Assembly: GCA_007695175.1 (NCBI GenBank)
Contig: REEH01000097.1
Span: 1-45,843 of the forward strand
Source of the DNA: Spirochaetaceae bacterium
Lineage (GTDB): Bacteria; Spirochaetota; Spirochaetia; DSM-27196; Alkalispirochaetaceae
Direction of reading: 5' to 3'
DNA length: 45,843 nt
The notes under the pieces are model-generated. The model saw only the letters and a list, made by a program, of their open reading frames with translations, was not told where the DNA came from and made no database searches. Position numbers and translations under genes: made by a program. This document shows positions 347 through 28,563 of this stretch, piece after piece; within the stretch, counting starts at the first letter, position 1; each line of letters begins with the position of its first letter.

Positions 347-433
347 GGAGGGGGAGGGATTCGAACCCTCGGTACCCGGATAGAGTACAACTCCTTAGCA
401 GGGAGCCCGATTCAACCACTCTCGCACCCCTCC
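347..433 (-). tRNA. tRNA-Ser(GCU)
   Basis: An 87-base minus-strand class II tRNA. The acceptor GGAGGGG pairs with CCCCTCC. The anticodon stem GCTCC/GGAGT encloses loop CTGCTAA, giving anticodon GCT (codons AGC and AGU). The long variable arm typical of serine tRNAs and a T-arm with TTCGAAT are visible. It is the middle gene of the tRNA cluster. Confidence 0.95.
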
Positions 434-472
434 AATTTGTTGTTATCGCCGCGACGATAACTGTCCGGTACC

Positions 473-558
473 GGAGAGAGTGGGATTCGAACCCACGGTA
501 CCCGCGAGGGCACAACGGTTTTCAAGACCGCCTCCTTAAACCACTCGGACACCTCTCC
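473..558 (-). tRNA. tRNA-Ser(UGA)
   Basis: An 86-base minus-strand class II tRNA. The acceptor GGAGAGG pairs with TCTCTCC (one G-T). The anticodon stem GCGGT/ACCGT encloses loop CTTGAAA, giving anticodon TGA (UCA-family codons). A long variable arm is present. It is the promoter-proximal gene of the Ser-Ser-Arg cluster. Confidence 0.95.
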
Positions 559-570
559 AGTGTGGCCGAA

Positions 571-599
571 ACTATAGCGATTACCGCTTGTCGTGTCAA
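571..599 (-). promoter_or_regulatory. Sigma-70 type promoter of the tRNA operon
   Basis: On the minus strand TTGACA (599-594), a 17-base spacer and TATAGT (576-571) form a near-consensus promoter. Transcription would start near 564, just upstream of tRNA-Ser(UGA). No gene is seen in 559-685 apart from this promoter. Confidence 0.85.
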
Positions 600-685
600 T
601 ATCGCCTTCGCCATAACTGCCCGGGGGAACGATCCTGCCCGATCCACCGTTCCGCCGGCGCTTCGCCCGGAGAGTACCAGACCGC

Positions 686-1951
686 TCAGAATGGCTCCAG
701 CAGTCCGTATCGGTACTTGAGTCGCAGAATCCGTTCGACCCCGATTTCTATATCCGCTTCAGTCAGGCGCCCGTCCCGGACCATCGCTTCCACCCGATTG
801 ATGACGTCCGGCAGCTGGTAGCGTACGTAGAGCAGAATAAGATCAACCCCCGAGCGGATCGCGCGCTCCAGGGTGGTGTCCATATCGAAGTTGGCCGCCA
901 GGGCTCCCATCTCGAGTCCGTCGCTGATCACGACGCCCTCAAAGCCCATCTCCTCTCTCAGGAGGTCCCGCAGGAAGAGTTCCGAGATCGTCACGGGGTA
1001 GTCCGGGTCGATTTCCGGAAAGAGGATGTGGGCGGTCATGATAACCGGGACACCGGCGGAGATCGACGCCGCGAAGGGTTCCAGTTCCCTCCCCCGGAGA
1101 TCGTCCATCGTGTAGGACACGATCGGCAGGCGTCCGTGGCTGTCCACGCGGGTGACACCGTGGCCGGGGAAGTGCTTGGCCGTGGAGATCACGCCCGCCC
1201 GGTTCATTCCCTGCACGTACCCTCCGGCGAAGTCCGATGCCATGATCGGATCGTCGCCCCAAGCCCGGTCTCCGATGATGCTGGAGTCGGGCACCGGTGT
1301 GAGATCCAGCACGGGTGCCAGGTTCATGTTGACCCCCATGGCGAGCAGTTCCCGGCCCGTGACGTAGGAGAGGCTCTCCACGAACTCCGGGTCGCCATGG
1401 CGGGCTACCGCGGCGGCGGAGGGTATTCGCACGATGTCGGTAAAGCGGAAGGCTGCCACCCGTCCTCCCTCCTGGTCCGCCGAGATCAGAAGCTTCCGAC
1501 CCGGCTGGGATCGCATCGCCACCGTCTGGAGCGCCGTCGTGAGCCGCACCACGTCATCCCGGTCCTCATAGTTCCACCGGTAGACGATCATTCCCGCGGG
1601 GTTTCCCTGCTCCATCATCCTCAGGAAGGCTTCCGCGGCGGCGGCTCTGAGCTCCTCCTCATCGGCCACCTCCGGGTCCGGGTCGTTCCGGTCCATGAGG
1701 CGCGGGTCCATCCCGGCCAGCCTCAGCAGGTCTTCCGGTTCGATCCCCCGGGGAATAAAGATCATGAAGCGCTGGCCGATGCGGGCACGCAGGTCCATGC
1801 TCTCCAGATGCATCCGTACGAGATCGTCCTCACTCACCGCGGGGAGCGCCACCGGAGGTTCCGGTGCTTCCGGGACGGTGGCGCAGGATGCGAGAATCAG
1901 TACAAGGAGGAGGGAAAACGAGCCGATTTTCGACGCTGCAGTCCTGATCAC
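686..1951 (-). CDS. GH3 family beta-N-acetylhexosaminidase-like lipoprotein (NagZ type)
   Basis: Glycoside hydrolase family 3, closest to NagZ-type beta-N-acetylglucosaminidases that trim muropeptides or chitin fragments. Family motifs are clear: ADQEGGRV, GDRAWGDDP, the KHFPGHG...DSH acid/base loop, and ISDGLEMGA with the nucleophile Asp. The start chosen is GTG at 1951 because it gives a compact lipoprotein signal peptide ending in LILASC (lipobox), with GGGGG five bases upstream. A TTG at 2014, adjacent to the aspS stop at 2018, is possible but would put 21 odd residues before the signal. Lipidation suggests periplasmic or outer-membrane location, unlike the cytosolic E. coli NagZ. It is last in the gatCAB-aspS operon, with no obvious functional link. 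It is 421 aa. The exact substrate is inferred. Confidence 0.87.
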   Translation of the reverse strand: MIRTAASKIGSFSLLLVLILASCATVPEAPEPPVALPAVSEDDLVRMHLESMDLRARIGQRFMIFIPRGIEPEDLLRLAGMDPRLMDRNDPDPEVADEEELRAAAAEAFLRMMEQGNPAGMIVYRWNYEDRDDVVRLTTALQTVAMRSQPGRKLLISADQEGGRVAAFRFTDIVRIPSAAAVARHGDPEFVESLSYVTGRELLAMGVNMNLAPVLDLTPVPDSSIIGDRAWGDDPIMASDFAGGYVQGMNRAGVISTAKHFPGHGVTRVDSHGRLPIVSYTMDDLRGRELEPFAASISAGVPVIMTAHILFPEIDPDYPVTISELFLRDLLREEMGFEGVVISDGLEMGALAANFDMDTTLERAIRSGVDLILLYVRYQLPDVINRVEAMVRDGRLTEADIEIGVERILRLKYRYGLLEPF

Positions 1952-2017
1952 GGGTACCCCCGGGCCAAGCGGTATTCCTCCGATTGTAACAGAGGGTGTT
2001 TCATAACAGGACAAACC

Positions 2018-3289
2018 TCAAGGGCGCACACGTTTCCGGTCCCGCGGGAAGAGCGAAGCCTCCTTCACGTTCTGGAGCCCCAGGATCTTCTGCGTAAGCC
2101 GCTCAAGGCCGATGGCGAACCCCCCGTGGGGCGGGCACCCGTACTTGAAAATGGAACAGTAGTCTCCCAGCCCCTCCTCGGTGAGGCCGAACTTCGGCAG
2201 TGTTTCCAGGAGCGTGGCGTACTGGTGTATTCTCTGGCCTCCCGTGGTTATTTCCAGGCCCCGGAAGAGCAGGTCAAAACTCCGCGTCTTGAGTCCCTCC
2301 GGATAGGTGTAGAAGGGACGCTTCTTGCGGGGGAAGCCATAGACGAATACCGCCTCCACGCCGTGCTCCTCCCGCGCCCACTCGCAAAGCTCCCGCTCAC
2401 CTTCAGGGTTGATCTCGAAGGCGGTCTTCCCCGTCCGCTCCTTGATGAACTGCCGGGCTTCCTCGTGGCTGATGCGGGGCGTCCGGGAGAATTCCTCCCC
2501 CGTGGGTACGGTGGCGCCGTACTCGTCGAGGATATCGGCGTGATCACGCTGAACCGAGGTAAAAATGTGGCCGAGCAATTCCGTTTCCAGGTCCATCAGG
2601 TCCGATTCGCTCTCGATAAATCCCATTTCCACGTCCAGGGAAACGTACTCGTTGAGGTGGCGCGGGGTGTCGTGCTTCTCCGCCCGGTATGCGGCGCCGA
2701 TTTCGAAAACACGCTCCAGTCCGCTGGCGACCATGGCCTGCTTGTAGAACTGCGGACTCTGGGCGAGGTACACCCGTTCTCCGAAGTAATCCACCGTGAA
2801 GAGTCCCGTTCCACCTTCCGTGCCGCTTCCGATGATCTTGCTCGACTTGATCTCGGTGAATCCCTCACCCCGGAGATACTCCGCGAAGTAATGGAGCAGT
2901 GACGCCTGCAGCTCGAATATCCGGCGGACCGAAGGATTCCGAAGGGTGACGATTCTGTTGTCCAGGATCGTCTCGAGCCCTACCGAGTCCAGGTCCTTGT
3001 TGATGGCAACGGGCAGTTCCGCCACGGCCGCCCCGATCACTTCCGTCGCGGCGGCCTGCACTTCATATCCCCCCGGTGCTTTCTCGTTGGATGCAACCCG
3101 CCCCTGGATGCGTATCACCGACTCCAGACTGAAATCCGGTTCAGTGTCGTACACGACCTGCACGAGGCCGCTGCGATCCCGCAGAATCACGAAGGTGATC
3201 CCCCCCAGTTTCCGGATCCTGTGTGCCCAGCCGCAGAGCGTTACCGCCTCTCCCTCGTGCCGGGGGATATCCCGTGCCAGTATTCTCAT
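2018..3289 (-). CDS. aspS: Aspartyl-tRNA synthetase, archaeal type, probably non-discriminating (Asp/Asn)
   Basis: A class IIb aminoacyl-tRNA synthetase charging Asp onto tRNA-Asp and probably tRNA-Asn. At 423 aa it matches the short archaeal/AspRS2 form, not the roughly 590-aa bacterial form with a GAD insertion. The N-terminal OB-fold anticodon domain spans about 1-100. Motif 2 surrounds FEIGAAYRAEKHDT and motif 3 is GFAIGLERLT near the C-terminus. In the anticodon domain, GWAHRIRKLGG puts His (H23) and KAPGGYEV puts Pro (P72) where, as I recall, discriminating archaeal enzymes have Trp and Lys; His and Pro mark relaxed enzymes. Its place directly after gatC-gatA-gatB supports supplying Asp-tRNA-Asn for amidation. 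A strong AAGGAG precedes the ATG; gatB ends 12 bases upstream. Relaxed specificity is inference. Confidence 0.93.
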   Translation of the reverse strand: MRILARDIPRHEGEAVTLCGWAHRIRKLGGITFVILRDRSGLVQVVYDTEPDFSLESVIRIQGRVASNEKAPGGYEVQAAATEVIGAAVAELPVAINKDLDSVGLETILDNRIVTLRNPSVRRIFELQASLLHYFAEYLRGEGFTEIKSSKIIGSGTEGGTGLFTVDYFGERVYLAQSPQFYKQAMVASGLERVFEIGAAYRAEKHDTPRHLNEYVSLDVEMGFIESESDLMDLETELLGHIFTSVQRDHADILDEYGATVPTGEEFSRTPRISHEEARQFIKERTGKTAFEINPEGERELCEWAREEHGVEAVFVYGFPRKKRPFYTYPEGLKTRSFDLLFRGLEITTGGQRIHQYATLLETLPKFGLTEEGLGDYCSIFKYGCPPHGGFAIGLERLTQKILGLQNVKEASLFPRDRKRVRP

Positions 3290-3301
3290 TCTCTACTCCT
3301 T

Positions 3302-5872
3302 CTACGTCATCAGGTGGAGGACGCGTTCCCGGAACTCTTCCTCCGACTGGTAACCCCGGTCACCGGCACCGGAGTCGGAGCTTCCACCGGCGCCGACGAG
3401 TGCGGCCTCCACCTGCGCCGCCACCAGCCGTGTGAAGGCACTCTCAGTGGTGAGGCCACCCATGGGAATCGCGCCGTTTCGCCACAACTCATGGGCCGTG
3501 ACGTATCCGGAAAAGTCCACCACTCCCTCCTGCTGGGAGGTGCAGAAAAAGGATACGCCCCGTTCGCGCCCCCGTACCAGCGCTTTTCGCAGCGAGAAGG
3601 GCGTTTCCCGCAGGTTTGCCGTCCCCGTGTCATAGATTTCGAGGATGAAGTACCTGATCCCCGCGTCCATCAGGGCAATCAGCGTCTCCCCGGGCATGCC
3701 GGGAAAGACGCGCACCACAAAGGTGCGCCGCAGGGCGCTCTCCAGAACGGCCGTAAGCACTTCCCGCGTGACGCTCCGAGCCGTCGGCGCAAGGGCCGCA
3801 CCGCGGCGCCGCAGTCCGACGGGATTCCAGGTGCGGAAAGACCCGGTTTCTCCCTCCGGTGAGGGGGCGATGCGCTCGAAACGCAGGTTTACGGGCATGA
3901 AGTCCTCACCACCGTACACCACGTGAATGCCCGCTTCCGCCCCGGCCGCAACCTGGACGGCGCGGCGGAGGTTTGCCACCGACTCGCCCCGTTCGCCCTC
4001 ATCGGTGGGAACCGCACCGGCGGTAAGCACAATCGGCACCGACGTATCGGCAAAGAACCAGTACACCAGGCCGGCGGTGTACGCCAGCGTGTCCGTTCCG
4101 TGGGCAACTACTATTCCCTGAACGCTCCGTTCCTCCAGCGTCGACGCCAGGCGGGTCAGGAGGGCTGACCAGTCCGCCGGGGTTATCTCCTCGCTGAGAA
4201 ACCGCCCCAGGCGAATCTCCTCAAAGACGATCTGCTCCGGCAAATCCGGATCCTGCCGGAAGAGCTCGCCCAGGCTGACCAGGTCTCCCGGCTCGACCAG
4301 TCCGTCCTCCCGGCGGTGCCCCGCGATGGCTCCGCCAAAGGAGAGGACCTGGATGGTGGGAATCCGCGGGGAGCGGCGCGGCGCCGTTGCCTCCGATCCC
4401 GCACGCGACTCCGGCCGCGGCTCCCGCGCCGGCGGGGCGCCCAGAAGAAGCTCCTGCAGCAGAGCCTGCGCCGCCGCCGGTTCCGCCCGGCCTTCCGTGG
4501 CCTTCATGACCTGCCCCATGAGAAACCCCACGGGTTTGCTCTCACCCTGACGGACCTGCTCCGCCGCCCCTTCGTGCTGCTCGATGACGGAGAGAATGAA
4601 GGGTTCCAGCTCCGAGCGGTGTGCTATCTGTTTCCAGCCCTGCTCCTCGATGATCTCGATCGGATCCAGGCTGCTGTTCCTTCCCCCCTCAAAGAGCAGT
4701 TCCAGCGTCTGCTTGGCTATCTTTCCGTGAATCGTTCCCTCCGCGAGAAGACGGAGCAGCTGCGCCAGGCGGGGGGGAGTCAGGGGACTTTCCGTCAGAG
4801 ACCAGCCCCGGCGATTGAGCTGCTTGCGCACGTCCCCGGCAAGCCATGTGACGACCATCTCGGGGTCGAGCTCCGGTTCCTCCGCGAGGACGAGTTCGAA
4901 ACAGTCCGCCGTTTCCTTCTCGTCACAGAGAAACTCCGTCTGCGGTACGCTCAGCTTCCACTCTTCCTGAAAACGGGCACGCCGCTCCGCCGGAAGTTCA
5001 ACCTGCCGTTCCTCCACGTTCCGCAGAAAGGCCGCGTCGGCGTGAAAGTGGGGGAGGTCCGGCTCGGGAAAATAGCGGTAATCGTGGGCACTTTCCTTGG
5101 TGCGCATGGACTCGCTCTGGTCACGGTTCTCGTTCCACAGGCGCGTCTCCTGGGCCACCGTACCACCCCGCTCAAGGATCTCCTCCTGCCGTTCGATCTC
5201 GAAATTGAGCGCCTTTCGCACGAAGCGCGAGCTGTTGAGGTTCTTGATCTCCACCTTGCTGCCCAGTCCGGCGCCTTCGAGGTTTACCGAGACGTTGGCG
5301 TCACACCGGAGGGATCCCTCCTCCATGTTTCCATCGCACACGCCCAGGTAGCGCACGATGCGGCGCAGCTCCTGCAGAAGCGCTTCCGCCTCCTCCCCGA
5401 TCTCCAGGTCCGGCTCCGTCACGATCTCCAGCAGGGGCGTACCGGTGCGGTTGTAGTCCAGCAGGGACATGTCCCCGGCGTGGATCATCTTGCCCGCATC
5501 CTCCTCCAGGTGGATCTGGTGGATGCGGACACGCTTCTTCTTCTTGCGGAACTCCAGGTCCAGGTATCCCTGTCGGCCCAGGGGCGCGTGATACTGGCTG
5601 ATCTGGTAGTTCTTGGGGAGGTCCGGATAGAAGTAGTTCTTGCGGTCAAAGGAACACTCCGGCGTGAGCTCGCAGTTGAGCGCCCGCGCCACGGTGTAGG
5701 CCATCTCGATCGCCTCCCCGTTCAGGGTGGGCAGCACACCGGGGTATCCCATGCATACGGGGCAGACGTTGGTGTTCGGTTCATCCCCGAATCCGGCGCG
5801 GCATCCGCAGAATATCTTGGTCTGCGTCAGAAGCTGTACGTGAATCTCGAGTCCGACGAAAGAACGGTACAT
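3302..5872 (-). CDS. gatB: GatB (Asp/Glu-tRNA amidotransferase subunit B) fused to a C-terminal asparaginase-like domain
   Basis: Residues about 1-479 are a complete GatB: the cradle domain (FVGLEIHVQL, YPDLPKNYQISQ, GSLRCDANVS, KVEIKNLNS) that phosphorylates and amidates misacylated tRNA, then the helical/YqeY tail (GFLMGQVMKAT near 450). After a Pro/Arg-rich linker (about 480-505) comes a full type I asparaginase/GatD-like domain (about 505-826). It shows SFGGAIAG (513-517 region), AHGTDTLAYTA (T593, D594), a central segment, and the C-terminal TSQ...GGLTTESA pattern. The first catalytic Thr of GGTIA is Ala (A515), and no Lys sits at the usual position around NLRFER, so hydrolysis is doubtful. 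Start: ATG at 5872, with GGGGAGG upstream, overlapping the gatA stop (TGATG). Normal GatB is about 480 aa; this is 856. It is one open frame with no sign of a frameshift. Confidence 0.93.
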   Translation of the reverse strand: MYRSFVGLEIHVQLLTQTKIFCGCRAGFGDEPNTNVCPVCMGYPGVLPTLNGEAIEMAYTVARALNCELTPECSFDRKNYFYPDLPKNYQISQYHAPLGRQGYLDLEFRKKKKRVRIHQIHLEEDAGKMIHAGDMSLLDYNRTGTPLLEIVTEPDLEIGEEAEALLQELRRIVRYLGVCDGNMEEGSLRCDANVSVNLEGAGLGSKVEIKNLNSSRFVRKALNFEIERQEEILERGGTVAQETRLWNENRDQSESMRTKESAHDYRYFPEPDLPHFHADAAFLRNVEERQVELPAERRARFQEEWKLSVPQTEFLCDEKETADCFELVLAEEPELDPEMVVTWLAGDVRKQLNRRGWSLTESPLTPPRLAQLLRLLAEGTIHGKIAKQTLELLFEGGRNSSLDPIEIIEEQGWKQIAHRSELEPFILSVIEQHEGAAEQVRQGESKPVGFLMGQVMKATEGRAEPAAAQALLQELLLGAPPAREPRPESRAGSEATAPRRSPRIPTIQVLSFGGAIAGHRREDGLVEPGDLVSLGELFRQDPDLPEQIVFEEIRLGRFLSEEITPADWSALLTRLASTLEERSVQGIVVAHGTDTLAYTAGLVYWFFADTSVPIVLTAGAVPTDEGERGESVANLRRAVQVAAGAEAGIHVVYGGEDFMPVNLRFERIAPSPEGETGSFRTWNPVGLRRRGAALAPTARSVTREVLTAVLESALRRTFVVRVFPGMPGETLIALMDAGIRYFILEIYDTGTANLRETPFSLRKALVRGRERGVSFFCTSQQEGVVDFSGYVTAHELWRNGAIPMGGLTTESAFTRLVAAQVEAALVGAGGSSDSGAGDRGYQSEEEFRERVLHLMT

Positions 5873-18734: not shown

Positions 18735-20252
18735 TCAGTACCGGTAGGCGTCCGGCTTGTAGGGGCCTTCCAGGGGAACCCCGATATACTCGGCCTGGTC
18801 CGGCGTAAGCCGGGTCAGCTCGATTCCCAGTTTCTTCAGGTGCAGCCGCGCCACCTCCTCGTCCAGAACCTTGTCGAGCACGCGCACGCCCGGTTTGTAC
18901 TCGTCCCGATGCGTCCACAGGTCCAGCTGCGCCAGGGTCTGGTTGGTAAAGCTGTTGGACATCACGAAACTGGGGTGGCCCGTGGCGTTGCCCAGGTTTA
19001 CCAGGCGTCCCTCGCTCAGCAGGTAGATGGAGTGGGGCGCGATCGTATTGCCCGCGCTGTCGCGGCCGCCGTTCCAGGTGTACTTGTCCACCTGGGGTTT
19101 GATATTGAGCCGTGTCACATGCTCCGAGGCGTTGAGACGCTCCACCTGGATCTCGTTGTCAAAGTGCCCGATGTTGGCCACGATCGCCTGGTCCTTCATC
19201 CCCTGCATGTGCTCCAGGGTGATGATGTCCTTGTTGCCCGTGGTGGTGACGAAGATATCGCCCTCACCCAGCACCGTCTCCAGGCGCTTTACCTCGTAGC
19301 CCTCCATCGCCGCCTGGAGCGCGCAAATCGGGTCTATCTCCGTGACGATCACCCGCGCTCCCTGGCTCCTGAGGCTCTGGGCGCTGCCCTTGCCCACGTC
19401 GCCGTAGCCGCAGACCACCGCCGTCTTGCCGGCGATCATTACGTCGGTACCCCGCTTGATCCCGTCGATCAGGCTCTCCCGGCACCCGTAGAGGTTGTCA
19501 AACTTGCTCTTGGTGACGCTGTCGTTCACGTTGATCGCCGGTACCAGGAGCGTCCCCTCCTCAGCCATCCTGTAGAGCCGGTGTACACCGGTGGTGGTCT
19601 CCTCGCTCACACCGCGCCACTCCGAGGCGATGCGGTGGAAAAACTGGGGATCTTCGCTGTGCACGCGCTTCAGAAGCGCCTTGATAACCGACTCCTCGTG
19701 GCTGCCCGAGGGAGTGTCCACCCAGCGGTCCCCGTCCTCCAGCTGCACGCCCTTGTGAATCAGGAGCGTCGCGTCGCCCCCGTCATCCACGATCAGGTTG
19801 GGTCCCACCACCCTGGTGAGCTCCGTGGAGCCGTCGGCGGCGGGGAAGGAGAGCGCCTTGAGCGTCATCTCCCAGTACTCCTCCAGGGTCTCCCCCTTGA
19901 AGGCGAATACCGGCACGCCCCGGGGATCCTCGGCGCTGCCCCCCGACGCGGGAGGTCCCACCACCACCGCCGAGGCGGCGTGATCCTGGGTACTGAATAT
20001 GTTGCAGCTCGCCCAGCGCACGTTTGCCCCGAGCTCCACCAGCGTCTCGATCAGGACCGCCGTCTGCACCGTCATGTGCAGGGACCCGGTAATGCGCACC
20101 CCCGCGAGCGGTCGGGAGGGTCCATACTTCTCCCGGGTGGCCATGAGACCGGGCATCTCGTGCTCCGCGATGTCCAGTTCCTTCCGGCCCCATTCGGCCA
20201 GGGCGATATCTCTCACAAGGTACTCGAAACGAGTTTCCGTCTTCGTTGTCAT
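18735..20252 (-). CDS. ahcY: S-adenosylhomocysteine hydrolase (adenosylhomocysteinase)
   Basis: Reversibly splits SAH to adenosine and homocysteine using bound NAD. Seen are the substrate domain start [37 protein letters not shown], the NAD-binding [17 protein letters not shown], and the C-terminal KPDAYRY that reaches the partner subunit. At 505 aa it belongs to the longer class that carries an insertion in the substrate domain. Three starts in a row (GTG-ATG-ATG) follow AAGGAG; the third (20252) has the best spacing. The adenosine product can feed the adenosine deaminase encoded at 33.8 kb. Confidence 0.98.
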
Positions 20253-20306
20253 CATCACTCCTTGATAGGGTACATTATTTCATATGAGGAAGAGGGGGAA
20301 AAGACC

Positions 20307-20330
20307 AGCCCGGGCCTGTGTACCCGGGCT
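20307..20330 (-). terminator. Hairpin after gcvH, probable terminator
   Basis: A perfect 8-bp GC-rich stem (AGCCCGGG/CCCGGGCT, 20307-20314 with 20323-20330) with an 8-base loop, 14 bases after the gcvH stop. On the minus strand it is followed by GGTCTTTTCC, a weak T-tract, so termination is likely but not certain. It separates gcvH from ahcY. Confidence 0.6.
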
Positions 20331-20344
20331 GCATGGGGGCTTGC

Positions 20345-20734
20345 TCAGTCGTCGAGCCCTTCCGTGAAGGAACGGTACGCCGCGGCGTCCATGAGACTGT
20401 CCAGTTCCGACGCGTCATCGGGCTTCACCTTGATGATCCAGCCCTCACCAAAGGGTGATTCGTTGATCGTCTCGGGCTTGTCGGAGAGTACCTCGTTGAC
20501 TTCCGCCACCGTCCCGGTCACGGGCATGTACAGGTCGCTCGCAGCCTTGACACTCTCCACGACACCAAAAGCGTCACCTTTCTTCAATGTTGCACCCACG
20601 GATGGAAACTCCACAAATACCACGTCGCCAAGTTCATCCTGGGCATAGTCGGAAACTCCGATAACAATCAGATCTCCATCCTTGCGCGCCCACTCGTGAC
20701 TTTCCTGATACCGAACCGACTCGTCAAAATTCAT
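20345..20734 (-). CDS. gcvH: Glycine cleavage system H protein
   Basis: Lipoyl carrier of the glycine cleavage complex. It spans 129 aa. The lipoylated lysine is K63 in GVVESVKAASDLYMP, with the typical DELGDVVFVEFPSVG before it and ESPFGEGWIIKV after it. GGGAGG lies ten bases before the ATG. gcvT and gcvP are not in the window, so this is a detached gcvH and could also serve as general lipoate relay with LplA (14.3 kb). Its own promoter is threaded by two DnaA boxes. Confidence 0.97.
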   Translation of the reverse strand: MNFDESVRYQESHEWARKDGDLIVIGVSDYAQDELGDVVFVEFPSVGATLKKGDAFGVVESVKAASDLYMPVTGTVAEVNEVLSDKPETINESPFGEGWIIKVKPDDASELDSLMDAAAYRSFTEGLDD

Positions 20735-20748
20735 GCAAAAATCCTCCC

Positions 20749-20778
20749 GTTATACACAGGTTATCCACATACTGTCTA
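20749..20778 (-). promoter_or_regulatory. gcvH promoter overlapped by two DnaA boxes
   Basis: Minus strand TAGACA (20778-20773), an 18-base spacer and TATAAC (20754-20749). The DnaA box TTATCCACA (20761-20769) lies in the spacer, and TTATACACA (20750-20758) covers the -10 element. Binding of DnaA here should block RNA polymerase. Confidence 0.65.
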
Positions 20779-20931
20779 GAAACAGAACATCTGTAAAGTA
20801 GACAGAACCGGGGTAAACCTCACGACTCCTATACCTAAATTCTCTAATAATAACGTTATGTTGGCCCCAGGGCCACATAATCGCTATACAGCTGTTCGGT
20901 TGATCGCCTGGTTATCCACAGACAATCCACA
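20750..20931. other. DnaA-box cluster between jag and gcvH
   Basis: Boxes: TTATACACA (20750-20758), TTATCCACA (20761-20769), TTATCCACA (20912-20920), and a degraded CAATCCACA (20923-20931). An AT-rich stretch lies at 20830-20860. No gene is present in the 202-base gap. It could be an accessory origin element, a DnaA titration site or promoter control. There is no change of gene direction here, which argues against the main origin. Confidence 0.6.
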
Positions 20932-20936
20932 GGCAA

Positions 20937-21662
20937 TCACCGATGATTCCCCCCGCGGTAGAAAACGCGCACCTGCTTGTACAAACCGTCACCCTCGCTC
21001 TCCGTACCGATATCGTCTATATCGTTCAGCGTCGTATGAATAAGTCGCCGTTCAAAGGGATTCATCGGTTCCAGCAGCTTGCTTCCCCTGGTCCGCTTTA
21101 CCTGGTCACCAACTTTGTGCGCAAGCTGGATAAGCTGCTCCTCCCGGCGTCCCCGGTACCCCTCCGTATCGAGAACGATCTTTATCTCCGAGTCCGTAAA
21201 GCGTCCCGCCAGAACGTTGGCGAGCAACTGCAGGGCGTCCAGGTTCTTGCCCTTTCGCCCGATGAGGATATTGGCGTGCTCCGTATCAAGACGGATGCCG
21301 AGCTTGTTGCTCTCACGGAAGGATATCCGGACATCCGAGGGAAAACCCATCTTCGCCGTCACGGAGGTGACGAAATCGACCACGGCGTGCTCAAAGTCCG
21401 TATCCGGGGGGAGACTGGTACCGGCGGTGAAGGATTGTCGCGGCTCACTCTGGGGACGGCTCGAGGGTTGGGCCGGCTCCCTCCGGGGAAGTTCATCCCC
21501 GGGAAGATGAACGCTGATCCGCACCGTCTTGTTCCGCCCGAAGAGACCTCCGCTGCGCGTGGAGAGAACCTCCACCTCGAATTCGTGCGGCTCCAGCCCG
21601 AGGGCGACCACCGCTGCATCTATCGCTTCCTGTTCCGAACGCCCCTCAAACTCTCGTACCAT
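20937..21662 (-). CDS. jag: Jag/KhpB, KH-R3H RNA-binding protein
   Basis: A 241-aa RNA-binding protein (SpoIIIJ-associated). The Jag_N domain spans about 1-50 (FEGRSEQEAIDAAVVALG ... GGLFGRNKTVRI). A charged linker follows, then a KH domain with GRKG (NILIGRKGKNLDAL), and a C-terminal R3H domain containing RRLIH. It starts right after yidC, with the GGAG ribosome site inside the yidC 3' end, the conserved yidC-jag pairing. Last gene of the rpmH-rnpA-yidC-jag operon. Confidence 0.95.
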   Translation of the reverse strand: MVREFEGRSEQEAIDAAVVALGLEPHEFEVEVLSTRSGGLFGRNKTVRISVHLPGDELPRREPAQPSSRPQSEPRQSFTAGTSLPPDTDFEHAVVDFVTSVTAKMGFPSDVRISFRESNKLGIRLDTEHANILIGRKGKNLDALQLLANVLAGRFTDSEIKIVLDTEGYRGRREEQLIQLAHKVGDQVKRTRGSKLLEPMNPFERRLIHTTLNDIDDIGTESEGDGLYKQVRVFYRGGNHR

Positions 21663-21664
21663 AG

Positions 21665-23437
21665 TTACTCCGTTACCTGGTGTTTCCGTCTCTGCGTGCT
21701 GTAAAACTGCTGCCCCACCGTTAACATGTTCGAGAAAATCCAGTACACCAGCAACCCGCTGGGCATGTTATACAGGATGAAGAAGAACATGACGGGCATA
21801 CCGTACTGCATCATCTTCATCTGGCTGTTACTGGTGCCCGCAGCAGGATTCTGCATAAGTTTACTCGATAACAACTGACTTGCAACAAAAAGTATCGGCA
21901 GGAGGCGTAAATCGTTCCATCCCAGGAAGGGAACGGTGAAATTCCCGAAATTCAGGATCGATTCCGGAGCCGAGAGGTCCGTAATCCAGCCGGGAATGAA
22001 GGTGGCGCCCCGCAGATCGAAGTGGTTGTTGAACAACCCGAACATGGCGATGAAGAAGGGGAACTGCAGACCCATGGGCAGACAGCCGCCAAGGGGATTG
22101 ACCCCCTCCTTCTTGTACAGCTCCTGCATCGCCTGATTCATCTTCTGCGGGTTATCCTTGTGCTTCTCCCGCAGCTCCTGGATCTTCGGGTTGAGAAGCT
22201 GCATCTTGCTGGTACTCTCAAAGCTCTTGTGCGTCAGGGGAAAGAGGAGAATCTTCACCAGCACCGTGAGGATTATGATCGCGAAACCGTAGTTGGGTAC
22301 AAACCGGTAGATGATCTGCATGGCGAACTTGAGAATGTTCTCAAGCCACCCGAAGAGAAAGCGTCGCTCCTCCACCTGACCCAGGTCGAGATTGCGCAAG
22401 CCCAGGGCGTTGTTCTCCGCCCGGTCGTACCGGTCCAGGAAGCCCGTAACCTTTGGTCCGATGTAGAACCGCAGGACATCCCGGTTGGCGGCACTGCGCA
22501 TCACGGGACGACTCAGGTACATGGCCGCGCCGTCCCGGAGGCCCGGGGGCGTCTCGTTGGTAAAGGTCCAGGTGTAGTCCGCGGCGCCGGGGATCGCGAT
22601 AATGGCGAAATACTTGCCCGAGAGGGTCGCCCAGTTTACCCGTTCCGTCAGCTGGTCCCGGTCCTCGTTTCTCAAACGAACTTCCCGGCGGCGATTCCCG
22701 TCATAGTAGAAGAAGCGGCGGTACTCGTTTCTGCCGTCCAGTTCCGCATAGGAGGGCCCGATCTGCGGTCCCACGGAAATCGTATAGGCTTTTCCCGCGT
22801 AATCCAGGGGGATCACGCGATTCACGGAGTTGATGATCTCCGTCACCACCTCCACCACATGCTCACCCGGGTGAAAGCGGAAGGTCCGACGTACCTCAAA
22901 GGGTTGTGACGGGGTCCCCTCGATAAAGAATTCCCGGCTGAAGACCACCGTATTCCTGTCGTCCGAGGGAATCCGTTCAAAAAGATCGGTCACCGGCGGT
23001 GCCTGGTCGTTACCGAAGTGCAGCTCAAAGGCGGCACGATCCGTCTCGCCCCGCTTGATGATCTCCACCGGTCTGTCGCCGTCCATGTGATTCAGGAGCT
23101 CCAGCGACTGGATTCTCGCACCCCGCGGGTCAAAGGTGACTCGCATCAGATCGTTCCGGTACTCCACCGGAGCGGAGGATATACCCTCCCGGGCGAGCGC
23201 CCGAACGGGGTTTCCTATCCGGGGCAACTCCGACAGCTGCTCCGGTTCCCGCGGTGCCGGTGGTGCAGGCTGCTCCGCAAGCTCTCCCGCCTCAGCGGGA
23301 CGTGGTTCTTCCCGCGGGCGTTCCGCGGCAGGCGCCACCGGGGCCGGTTCCGGCGGATACAGCATGTTCTGCACCATGAAACCGATCGAGATGACGATCA
23401 CCGAGAGAATCACCGCCAGGAGGGTGTTTTTTTCCAT
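21665..23437 (-). CDS. yidC: Membrane protein insertase YidC
   Basis: A 590-aa insertase of the Gram-negative type, inserting proteins alone or with SecYEG. TM1 is at residues 5-25 (LAVILSVIVISIGFMV), then a Pro/Glu/Ala-rich linker and a large periplasmic beta domain (about 75-350). The catalytic five-helix core (about 375-575) has YGFAIIILTVLVKILLFPLT, the coiled cytoplasmic hairpin with NPLGGCLPM, and the last TM MFFFILYNMPSGLLVYW. A basic tail (TQRRKHQVTE) would bind ribosomes. The large periplasmic domain supports a diderm host. It begins three bases after the rnpA stop. Confidence 0.97.
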   Translation of the reverse strand: MEKNTLLAVILSVIVISIGFMVQNMLYPPEPAPVAPAAERPREEPRPAEAGELAEQPAPPAPREPEQLSELPRIGNPVRALAREGISSAPVEYRNDLMRVTFDPRGARIQSLELLNHMDGDRPVEIIKRGETDRAAFELHFGNDQAPPVTDLFERIPSDDRNTVVFSREFFIEGTPSQPFEVRRTFRFHPGEHVVEVVTEIINSVNRVIPLDYAGKAYTISVGPQIGPSYAELDGRNEYRRFFYYDGNRRREVRLRNEDRDQLTERVNWATLSGKYFAIIAIPGAADYTWTFTNETPPGLRDGAAMYLSRPVMRSAANRDVLRFYIGPKVTGFLDRYDRAENNALGLRNLDLGQVEERRFLFGWLENILKFAMQIIYRFVPNYGFAIIILTVLVKILLFPLTHKSFESTSKMQLLNPKIQELREKHKDNPQKMNQAMQELYKKEGVNPLGGCLPMGLQFPFFIAMFGLFNNHFDLRGATFIPGWITDLSAPESILNFGNFTVPFLGWNDLRLLPILFVASQLLSSKLMQNPAAGTSNSQMKMMQYGMPVMFFFILYNMPSGLLVYWIFSNMLTVGQQFYSTQRRKHQVTE

Positions 23438-26760: not shown

Positions 26761-26933
26761 CAAATGTATTATATAGATTAGTTAGTAGTAGTAACAGCAG
26801 GCTCGGTGGATTTGTGGAAAACCGCCACAACCTGTTCAGGCATAACCGGTTATCGTCGGGATAACCCCATACCTCTTATCCCCCTCTTGTCCCCTTATCC
26901 ACAATGGTTCTTCTTGTCCCCCGGTTATCCCGC
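26761..26933. other. Probable oriC: unwinding module and DnaA-box array in the dnaA-dnaN gap
   Basis: Read on the minus strand: TTTTCCACA (26821-26813, one mismatch to the DnaA box), a GC-rich spacer, repeated TAC/TAA triplets (about 26795-26775) and the AT-rich CTATATAATACATTT. This order (DnaA box, GC-rich, DnaA-trio, AT-rich) matches the basal unwinding system described for Bacillus. On the dnaA side, five TTRTCC units run in one direction at 26876, 26887, 26895 (consensus TTATCCACA), 26914 and 26925. A 12-bp palindrome (ATAACCGGTTAT, 26842-26853) and an inverted GGTTATC (26848-26866) lie between. No gene is present in 26741-26962. Confidence 0.72.
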
Positions 26934-28372: not shown

Positions 28373-28563
28373 TTATCCACATTTTATCCACATCACTCTT
28401 TCATTTGCCACCCCCGAACGGGAGGGACCTCAATCAAGGAAATCGCCTCATCATAGCACAGGAGCGCGGCCTTTCCAGTAGGGAGGAGACTATTTTTCCC
28501 GTATTTACCCGTTCGAACCAACGGATGTAAAGCTTTCTGAATTTTATACACATGTTGTCCACA
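28373..28563. other. DnaA-box cluster between dnaA and gyrB
   Basis: In this 300-base gene-free gap lie TTATCCACA (28373-28381), TTATCCACA (28384-28392), TTATACACA (28544-28552) and TTGTCCACA (28555-28563, one mismatch), all in one orientation. The first pair sits in the dnaA leader, the second about 60 bases before the gyrB promoter. Gene direction diverges here, as expected near an origin. It could be the other half of a bipartite oriC, dnaA autoregulation, or both. Confidence 0.7.

Follow-up and report, generated by a model that had tools for sequence, protein, structure and literature searches.

Paired DnaA boxes in a spirochaete origin region

Do the DnaA boxes that lie between jag and gcvH in a Spirochaetaceae genome serve the metabolic gene beside them or the replication origin nearby? 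We analysed a stretch of 45,843 nucleotides (the window) with the gene order metK-ahcY-gcvH-(boxes)-jag-yidC-rnpA-recF-dnaN-(boxes, trios)-dnaA-(boxes)-gyrB. This is a spirochaete origin region of the Alkalispirochaeta type. A search with Jag named Alkalispirochaeta alkalica, two Spirochaeta sp. MAGs and a distant Anaerolineaceae MAG as relatives.

The genes on either side of the boxes, jag (KhpB/EloR; 20937–21662) and gcvH (20345–20734), are both on the minus strand. We observed two tandem box pairs between them, both on the plus strand, 151 bp apart and with an 11-bp period. The gcvH-side pair (20750–20769) is made up of TTATACACA (20750–20758), GG and TTATCCACA (20761–20769). The jag-side pair (20912–20931), which ends 5 bp short of the jag stop codon, is made up of TTATCCACA (20912–20920), GA and CAATCCACA (20923–20931), a weak box with two mismatches that completes the second pair. 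An earlier, sequence-only reading had reported three boxes here, the third 142 bases upstream of the other two with an AT-rich stretch in between. We found the three boxes at 20750, 20761 and 20912, all on the plus strand, and the AT-rich spacer of 142 bp (20770–20911) between the pairs.

The pattern TTWTNCACA occurs nine times in the window compared to an expected 0.57, and none of 100 shuffles reached nine. Over the whole 3.72-Mb assembly we counted 37 copies of TTATNCACA, seven of them in the 46-kb window, and 23 copies of a reversed control pattern, so single boxes are just modestly enriched genome-wide. The 11-bp tandem double box was found three times in the genome, twice in the window (control, 0). 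Across 61 genomes it was present in 26, and the control pattern was found in none of the 61. As in a cluster of the Bacillus subtilis type, consensus boxes here stand well above chance and lie outside the unwinding region.

The boxes follow the 3' end of jag

We anchored a comparison to jag in 46 genomes of the order. Four had no jag match (G026, G031, G033 and G035) and in a fifth the contig ended inside jag (G028), leaving 41 for analysis. Each of the 41 had one or more copies of TTWTNCACA after jag; these were never on the jag strand and started 5 to 518 bp past its stop codon. Within 520 bp after jag there were 78 boxes in 40 of the 41 genomes, with none on the other strand (shuffled sequences: mean 1.45, maximum 5), a count in which genomes of one family are non-independent samples. 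The box of the remaining genome starts at 518. Control stretches of the same loci, which are mostly coding, held 9 boxes in 251 kb, compared to 78 in 21 kb after jag. A second site on the same strand, with up to one mismatch, lay 100–300 bp from the first in 32/41 genomes.

Within the genome's own family, where gcvH is the next gene after the boxes, both pairs were recognisable in all eight members aligned. Some of their boxes had one or two mismatches, and the gcvH-side pair of two members (G003 and G007) was without a strict box. The sequence-only reading had staked itself on the boxes being kept in close relatives, and in this respect it held. We also considered a middle motif between the pairs, RNTTCNGTCYAC, that appeared to be common to families f1 and f8. 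It was present in just 7/41 genomes by exact scan and is therefore not claimed.

Because the boxes lie so uniformly past the jag stop codon on the opposite strand (41/41), they could act at the 3' end of the yidC-jag transcript, for example as a roadblock or an aid to termination. Their distance from jag is variable, however, and the two sites 100–300 bp apart in 32/41 genomes go beyond what a terminator needs. The terminator-like match at 20760–20746 was weak (two matches in the region by scan, compared to 1.2 in shuffles). We consider a role at the transcript end highly implausible.

Outside the order, the boxes were patchy. A strict box lay within 520 bp after jag in 14 of 75 class-level genomes (4/15 and 10/60); 24 of their boxes had the strand orientation seen in the order and two had the opposite one. 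The next gene was convergent in eight of the 14 (G049, G060, G061, G071, G079, G101, G112 and G132), ahcY in three (G050, G074 and G090), a mannose-1-phosphate guanylyltransferase-like frame in one (G063) and gcvH in two (G059 and G091); ORFs for the convergent frames were picked mechanically and identified by reading, not by family search. Boxes between convergent genes occupy a position where a promoter is unneeded. In G071, gcvT and gcvH come after the convergent gene. The box in G091 is on the other strand, 92 bp into a stretch where gcvH already runs, and is probably due to chance. In three genomes where gcvH begins 0–13 bp after jag (G052, G076 and G091), the pairs were absent. The boxes thus follow jag, independent of gcv.

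A probable bystander or secondary role for gcvH

According to the sequence-only reading, the boxes occupy the -10 element and the spacer of a gcvH promoter. Promoter scan, Shine-Dalgarno position and alignment all left this promoter unconfirmed. A sigma-70 scan of 20200–21700 on both strands gave no promoter-like site, which is weak evidence because shuffles average 0.5 sites and the scan knows one promoter type. The supposed -10, TATAAC (minus strand, 20754–20749), immediately adjoins the Shine-Dalgarno sequence GGGAGG, so a transcript from it would be without a Shine-Dalgarno sequence. The hexamer is TATAAC in two of the eight family members (the genome analysed and G002) and GATAAC, GAAAAC or GATAAA in the other six.

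We then weighed the wider proposal that control by DnaA is dedicated to gcvH or the gcv operon and couples one-carbon and lipoyl metabolism to the replication cycle. In six of the eight family members, a strict box of the gcvH-side pair ends 12–27 bp before gcvH, so that DnaA sitting there would be expected to impede transcription. Wherever the next gene was identified in the order (39 genomes), it was gcvH or gcvT, so a regulatory role there may exist. In B. subtilis, trmEF-rsmG-noc, which comes after the post-jag site, is listed among the direct targets of DnaA (PMC8203912), and a secondary effect on gcvH is therefore possible. Against these points, the gap between the nearest strict box and the first gcv gene downstream ranges from 12 to 582 bp (39 genomes), unlike the fixed position relative to the promoter of one target gene that marks a DnaA-regulated promoter. 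The boxes are also kept beside ahcY, another gene and convergent genes. The absence of a visible sigma-70-like promoter points the same way, weak as that result is.

Genes of the gcv system elsewhere argue in the same direction. We looked at five gcvH genes away from jag. In four, the 500 bp upstream were free of strict boxes; the remaining one (G048) had TTTTCCACA at 323 bp and a one-mismatch box at 102 bp before the gene. In the genome analysed, the GcvT and GcvP domains lie away from gcvH in one open frame of 1355 aa on contig C57, and TTWTNCACA is absent from the whole of this 6-kb contig. We rejected a gcvH promoter as the main function on the combined grounds of alignment, distance, promoter scan, decoupled genomes and gcv genes elsewhere. 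Dedicated control of gcvH or the gcv operon appears decidedly improbable. The claim that DnaA controls gcvH as such found no support, as the boxes track the jag 3' end whichever gene comes next. Overall, the boxes probably affect gcvH secondarily or not at all. A literature search combining 'DnaA box' with 'gcvH' returned no paper from the collection searched, itself incomplete.

Two gcv arrangements were observed along the way. The open frame on C57 (L177; reverse complement, 395–4459) is an apparent GcvT-GcvP fusion. At another locus (L061), gcvT, identified by Pfam, is followed by gcvH and then by two frames that we take, by reading, to be gcvP-like.

The post-jag cluster and the unwinding site

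We next consider the boxes in relation to the origin. A DnaA-trio repeat, TAGTAGTAGTAA (26783–26794, plus strand), is the predicted unwinding element of the dnaA-dnaN region. It is adjoined by the box TTTTCCACA (26813–26821, minus strand), and a further box, TTATCCACA (26895–26903, plus strand), lies between dnaA and dnaN. In 26 of 33 genomes, the dnaA-dnaN gap or the sequence immediately beyond it held a run of at least three TAG/TAA trios, usually beside a box. Such runs were missing there in seven (all five f8 genomes, G054 and G057). From these motifs, the unwinding site likely lies between dnaA and dnaN. The longest dnaN ORF, which opens with a TTG at 26830, takes in the box and trios at 26783–26821; dnaN therefore probably begins at a start codon deeper within this frame.

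Directly upstream of dnaA we observed another tandem pair (28373–28392, plus strand), with the same spacing and strand as the post-jag pairs, and a second one (28544–28563, plus strand) made up of TTATACACA, TG and TTGTCCACA, the latter with one mismatch. Boxes upstream of dnaA, mostly paired, were also seen in the six genomes of the same family that we examined and in five f4 genomes (G017, G023, G028, G036 and G040). The sampled f2, f3, f5 and f8 genomes had no box in the dnaA-gyrB gap and kept their post-jag boxes. For the genome's own family, a likely origin layout is an unwinding site between dnaA and dnaN with paired boxes upstream of dnaA and after jag. Published putative spirochaete origins were placed in the gap upstream of dnaA (PMC2897892), and jag is unmentioned in the portion of that paper available.

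We favour the reading, at a probability of roughly 0.6, that the post-jag element is an origin-proximal cluster of DnaA boxes, fixed to the 3' end of jag, that would titrate DnaA or modulate initiation, with any effect on gcvH being secondary. This judgement draws on box identity, the geometry and strand of the pairs, their conservation after jag and their independence from gcv; the patchiness outside the order counts against it. The cluster would sit about 6 kb from the unwinding site and, in its full form, would comprise two same-strand double boxes about 140–270 bp apart. By the E. coli rule for boxes 2–3 bp apart, binding of DnaA to each double box would be expected to be cooperative, and a short loop may bring the two pairs into contact. 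Lying next to the origin, the cluster would be duplicated soon after initiation. The duplicated cluster could then soak up free DnaA and so help to determine when initiation occurs, a role proposed for the B. subtilis clusters. The cluster may incidentally modulate transcription of whichever gene comes next (here gcvH). The sequence-only reading had offered a third origin element or a DnaA reservoir as its alternative to gcvH control. The evidence favours that alternative over gcvH control; at the level of sequence, titration and a direct part in the orisome look alike.

The post-jag pairs could instead be a structural part of the origin, a further region of DnaA oligomerisation whose loop across the 6-kb dnaN-jag block would reach the unwinding site. 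Looping of oriC1 to oriC, which is thought to occur in B. subtilis, would be a parallel. The shared strand and double-box spacing of the family's pairs upstream of dnaA, and the retention of post-jag boxes in f2, f3, f5 and f8 genomes whose dnaA-gyrB gap has none, are consistent with such an arm. So is the helical phasing of the spacing between post-jag sites (R = 0.63 at 10.5 bp, 27 family-distance values), although values within a family are non-independent and hinge on choosing the shortest distance. With one value per family (12 values), P was about 0.02; this weak figure is the one that carries weight, because within-family values differ by box register.

The spacer between the post-jag pairs also contains a trio-like run, TAATAATAA (20845–20853, plus strand), 75 bp from the nearest box on its left. 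Apart from the dnaA-dnaN trios, the window contains no other TAA/TAG triple run (0.20 expected). This would fit an origin arm, but the run shares its strand with the boxes, whereas the trios at 26783 are opposite in strand and close to their box. In a search for a second unwinding site after jag, trio-like runs were found in just two of the 41 genomes (the genome analysed and G021) and in none of the other 39, and not in the dnaA-dnaN arrangement. We read TAATAATAA as AT-rich spacer, yet it is the best hint of a second opening site here.

Distance also counts against an origin arm. Boxes of a bipartite oriC lie in the gaps directly flanking dnaA, and the post-jag gap is about 6 kb from the dnaA-dnaN gap, beyond jag. 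A review gives bipartite origins as spanning no more than about 2 kb (PMC4285127), and B. subtilis reports treat the post-jag site as separate from oriC. Taken together, we consider a structural origin arm, the main rival, somewhat unlikely and retain the titrating or modulating cluster as the preferred reading.

Comparison with known DnaA-box clusters

The closest counterpart of the preferred cluster is in B. subtilis. Among the top DnaA regions of that genome, number 5, described as 'upstream of trmE; downstream of jag', has four sites and a Kd of 0.33 µM (ATP) or 0.43 µM (ADP), and the eight strongest regions are those seen in vivo (PMC4447404). Loss of six clusters outside oriC leads to early initiation, according to two reports (PMC5295017, PMC13220808); one of them notes that a tenfold overproduction of DnaA did not cause over-initiation (PMC13220808), which counts against the preferred reading. 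We infer that the post-jag site is among the six deleted clusters.

The gene context downstream of jag agrees with a cluster of the B. subtilis type, and the side relative to dnaA differs. In both organisms, a few DnaA boxes lie right after jag, near but outside the dnaA-dnaN unwinding region. The following gene is trmE in B. subtilis and gcvH or gcvT here. The jag block of B. subtilis lies, presumably, on the rpmH side of dnaA. It is thus beyond rpmH there and beyond dnaN and recF here, so that just the place after jag is common to the two. The bipartite oriC of B. subtilis and Helicobacter pylori resembles the family's arrangement in having box clusters on both sides of dnaA and trios in the dnaA-dnaN gap, and differs in that here a further cluster lies about 6 kb off, beyond jag.

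DnaA of E. coli prefers boxes 2 or 3 bp apart, and the double boxes found by ChIP-seq are, like ours, two tandem boxes at this spacing; in that study they explain single DnaA-bound regions tied to gene expression (PMC11317965), whereas here one intergenic gap holds two pairs. DnaA boxes accumulate near the E. coli origin (PMC12371093). The datA locus is described as roughly 1 kb long, at 94.7 min and with five boxes (PMC5295017). Like datA and DARS, the post-jag boxes form a non-coding locus that could modulate free or active DnaA.

The post-jag cluster is best read as an element of an established type, seen here in a group new to it and at a position after jag that Bacillus shares. This reading assigns the boxes to the replication origin instead of a metabolic gene and extends the post-jag DnaA cluster to a phylum distant from Bacillus. 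Whether the post-jag cluster is an old, general device that times initiation becomes a testable question. Our literature search, in a collection that is incomplete, returned nothing recognisable on post-jag boxes in spirochaetes.

In a bolder version, the post-jag site would be an outer arm of the bacterial origin so old that it has accompanied jag from before the split of Firmicutes and Spirochaetes, as a helically phased two-pair module working with the dnaA-dnaN unwinding site. If so, the following genes (trmE, gcvT, gcvH, ahcY or convergent genes) and even the position of the jag block on one or the other side of dnaA would change while the module stays. We hold this version to be unlikely.

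Other double-box sites

We observed a second two-pair DnaA module in the same genome, on contig C177 (L151, 5219–5462), which was recognisable in all seven genomes of the genus compared. It lies between the gene of a winged-helix regulator and a gene without a Pfam match, and a conserved T(A/G)TG(C/T)TA(A/C)TCT follows its second pair. The module is possibly another DnaA cluster or a DnaA-regulated promoter. Further 11-bp double boxes were found in two other genomes, at L155 5192–5211 (G008:C1:75191) and L156 4948–4967 (G012:C1:3239947). Both are single-contig genomes with dnaA at the contig start, and the boxes lie about 75 kb and 46 kb, respectively, from the contig ends.
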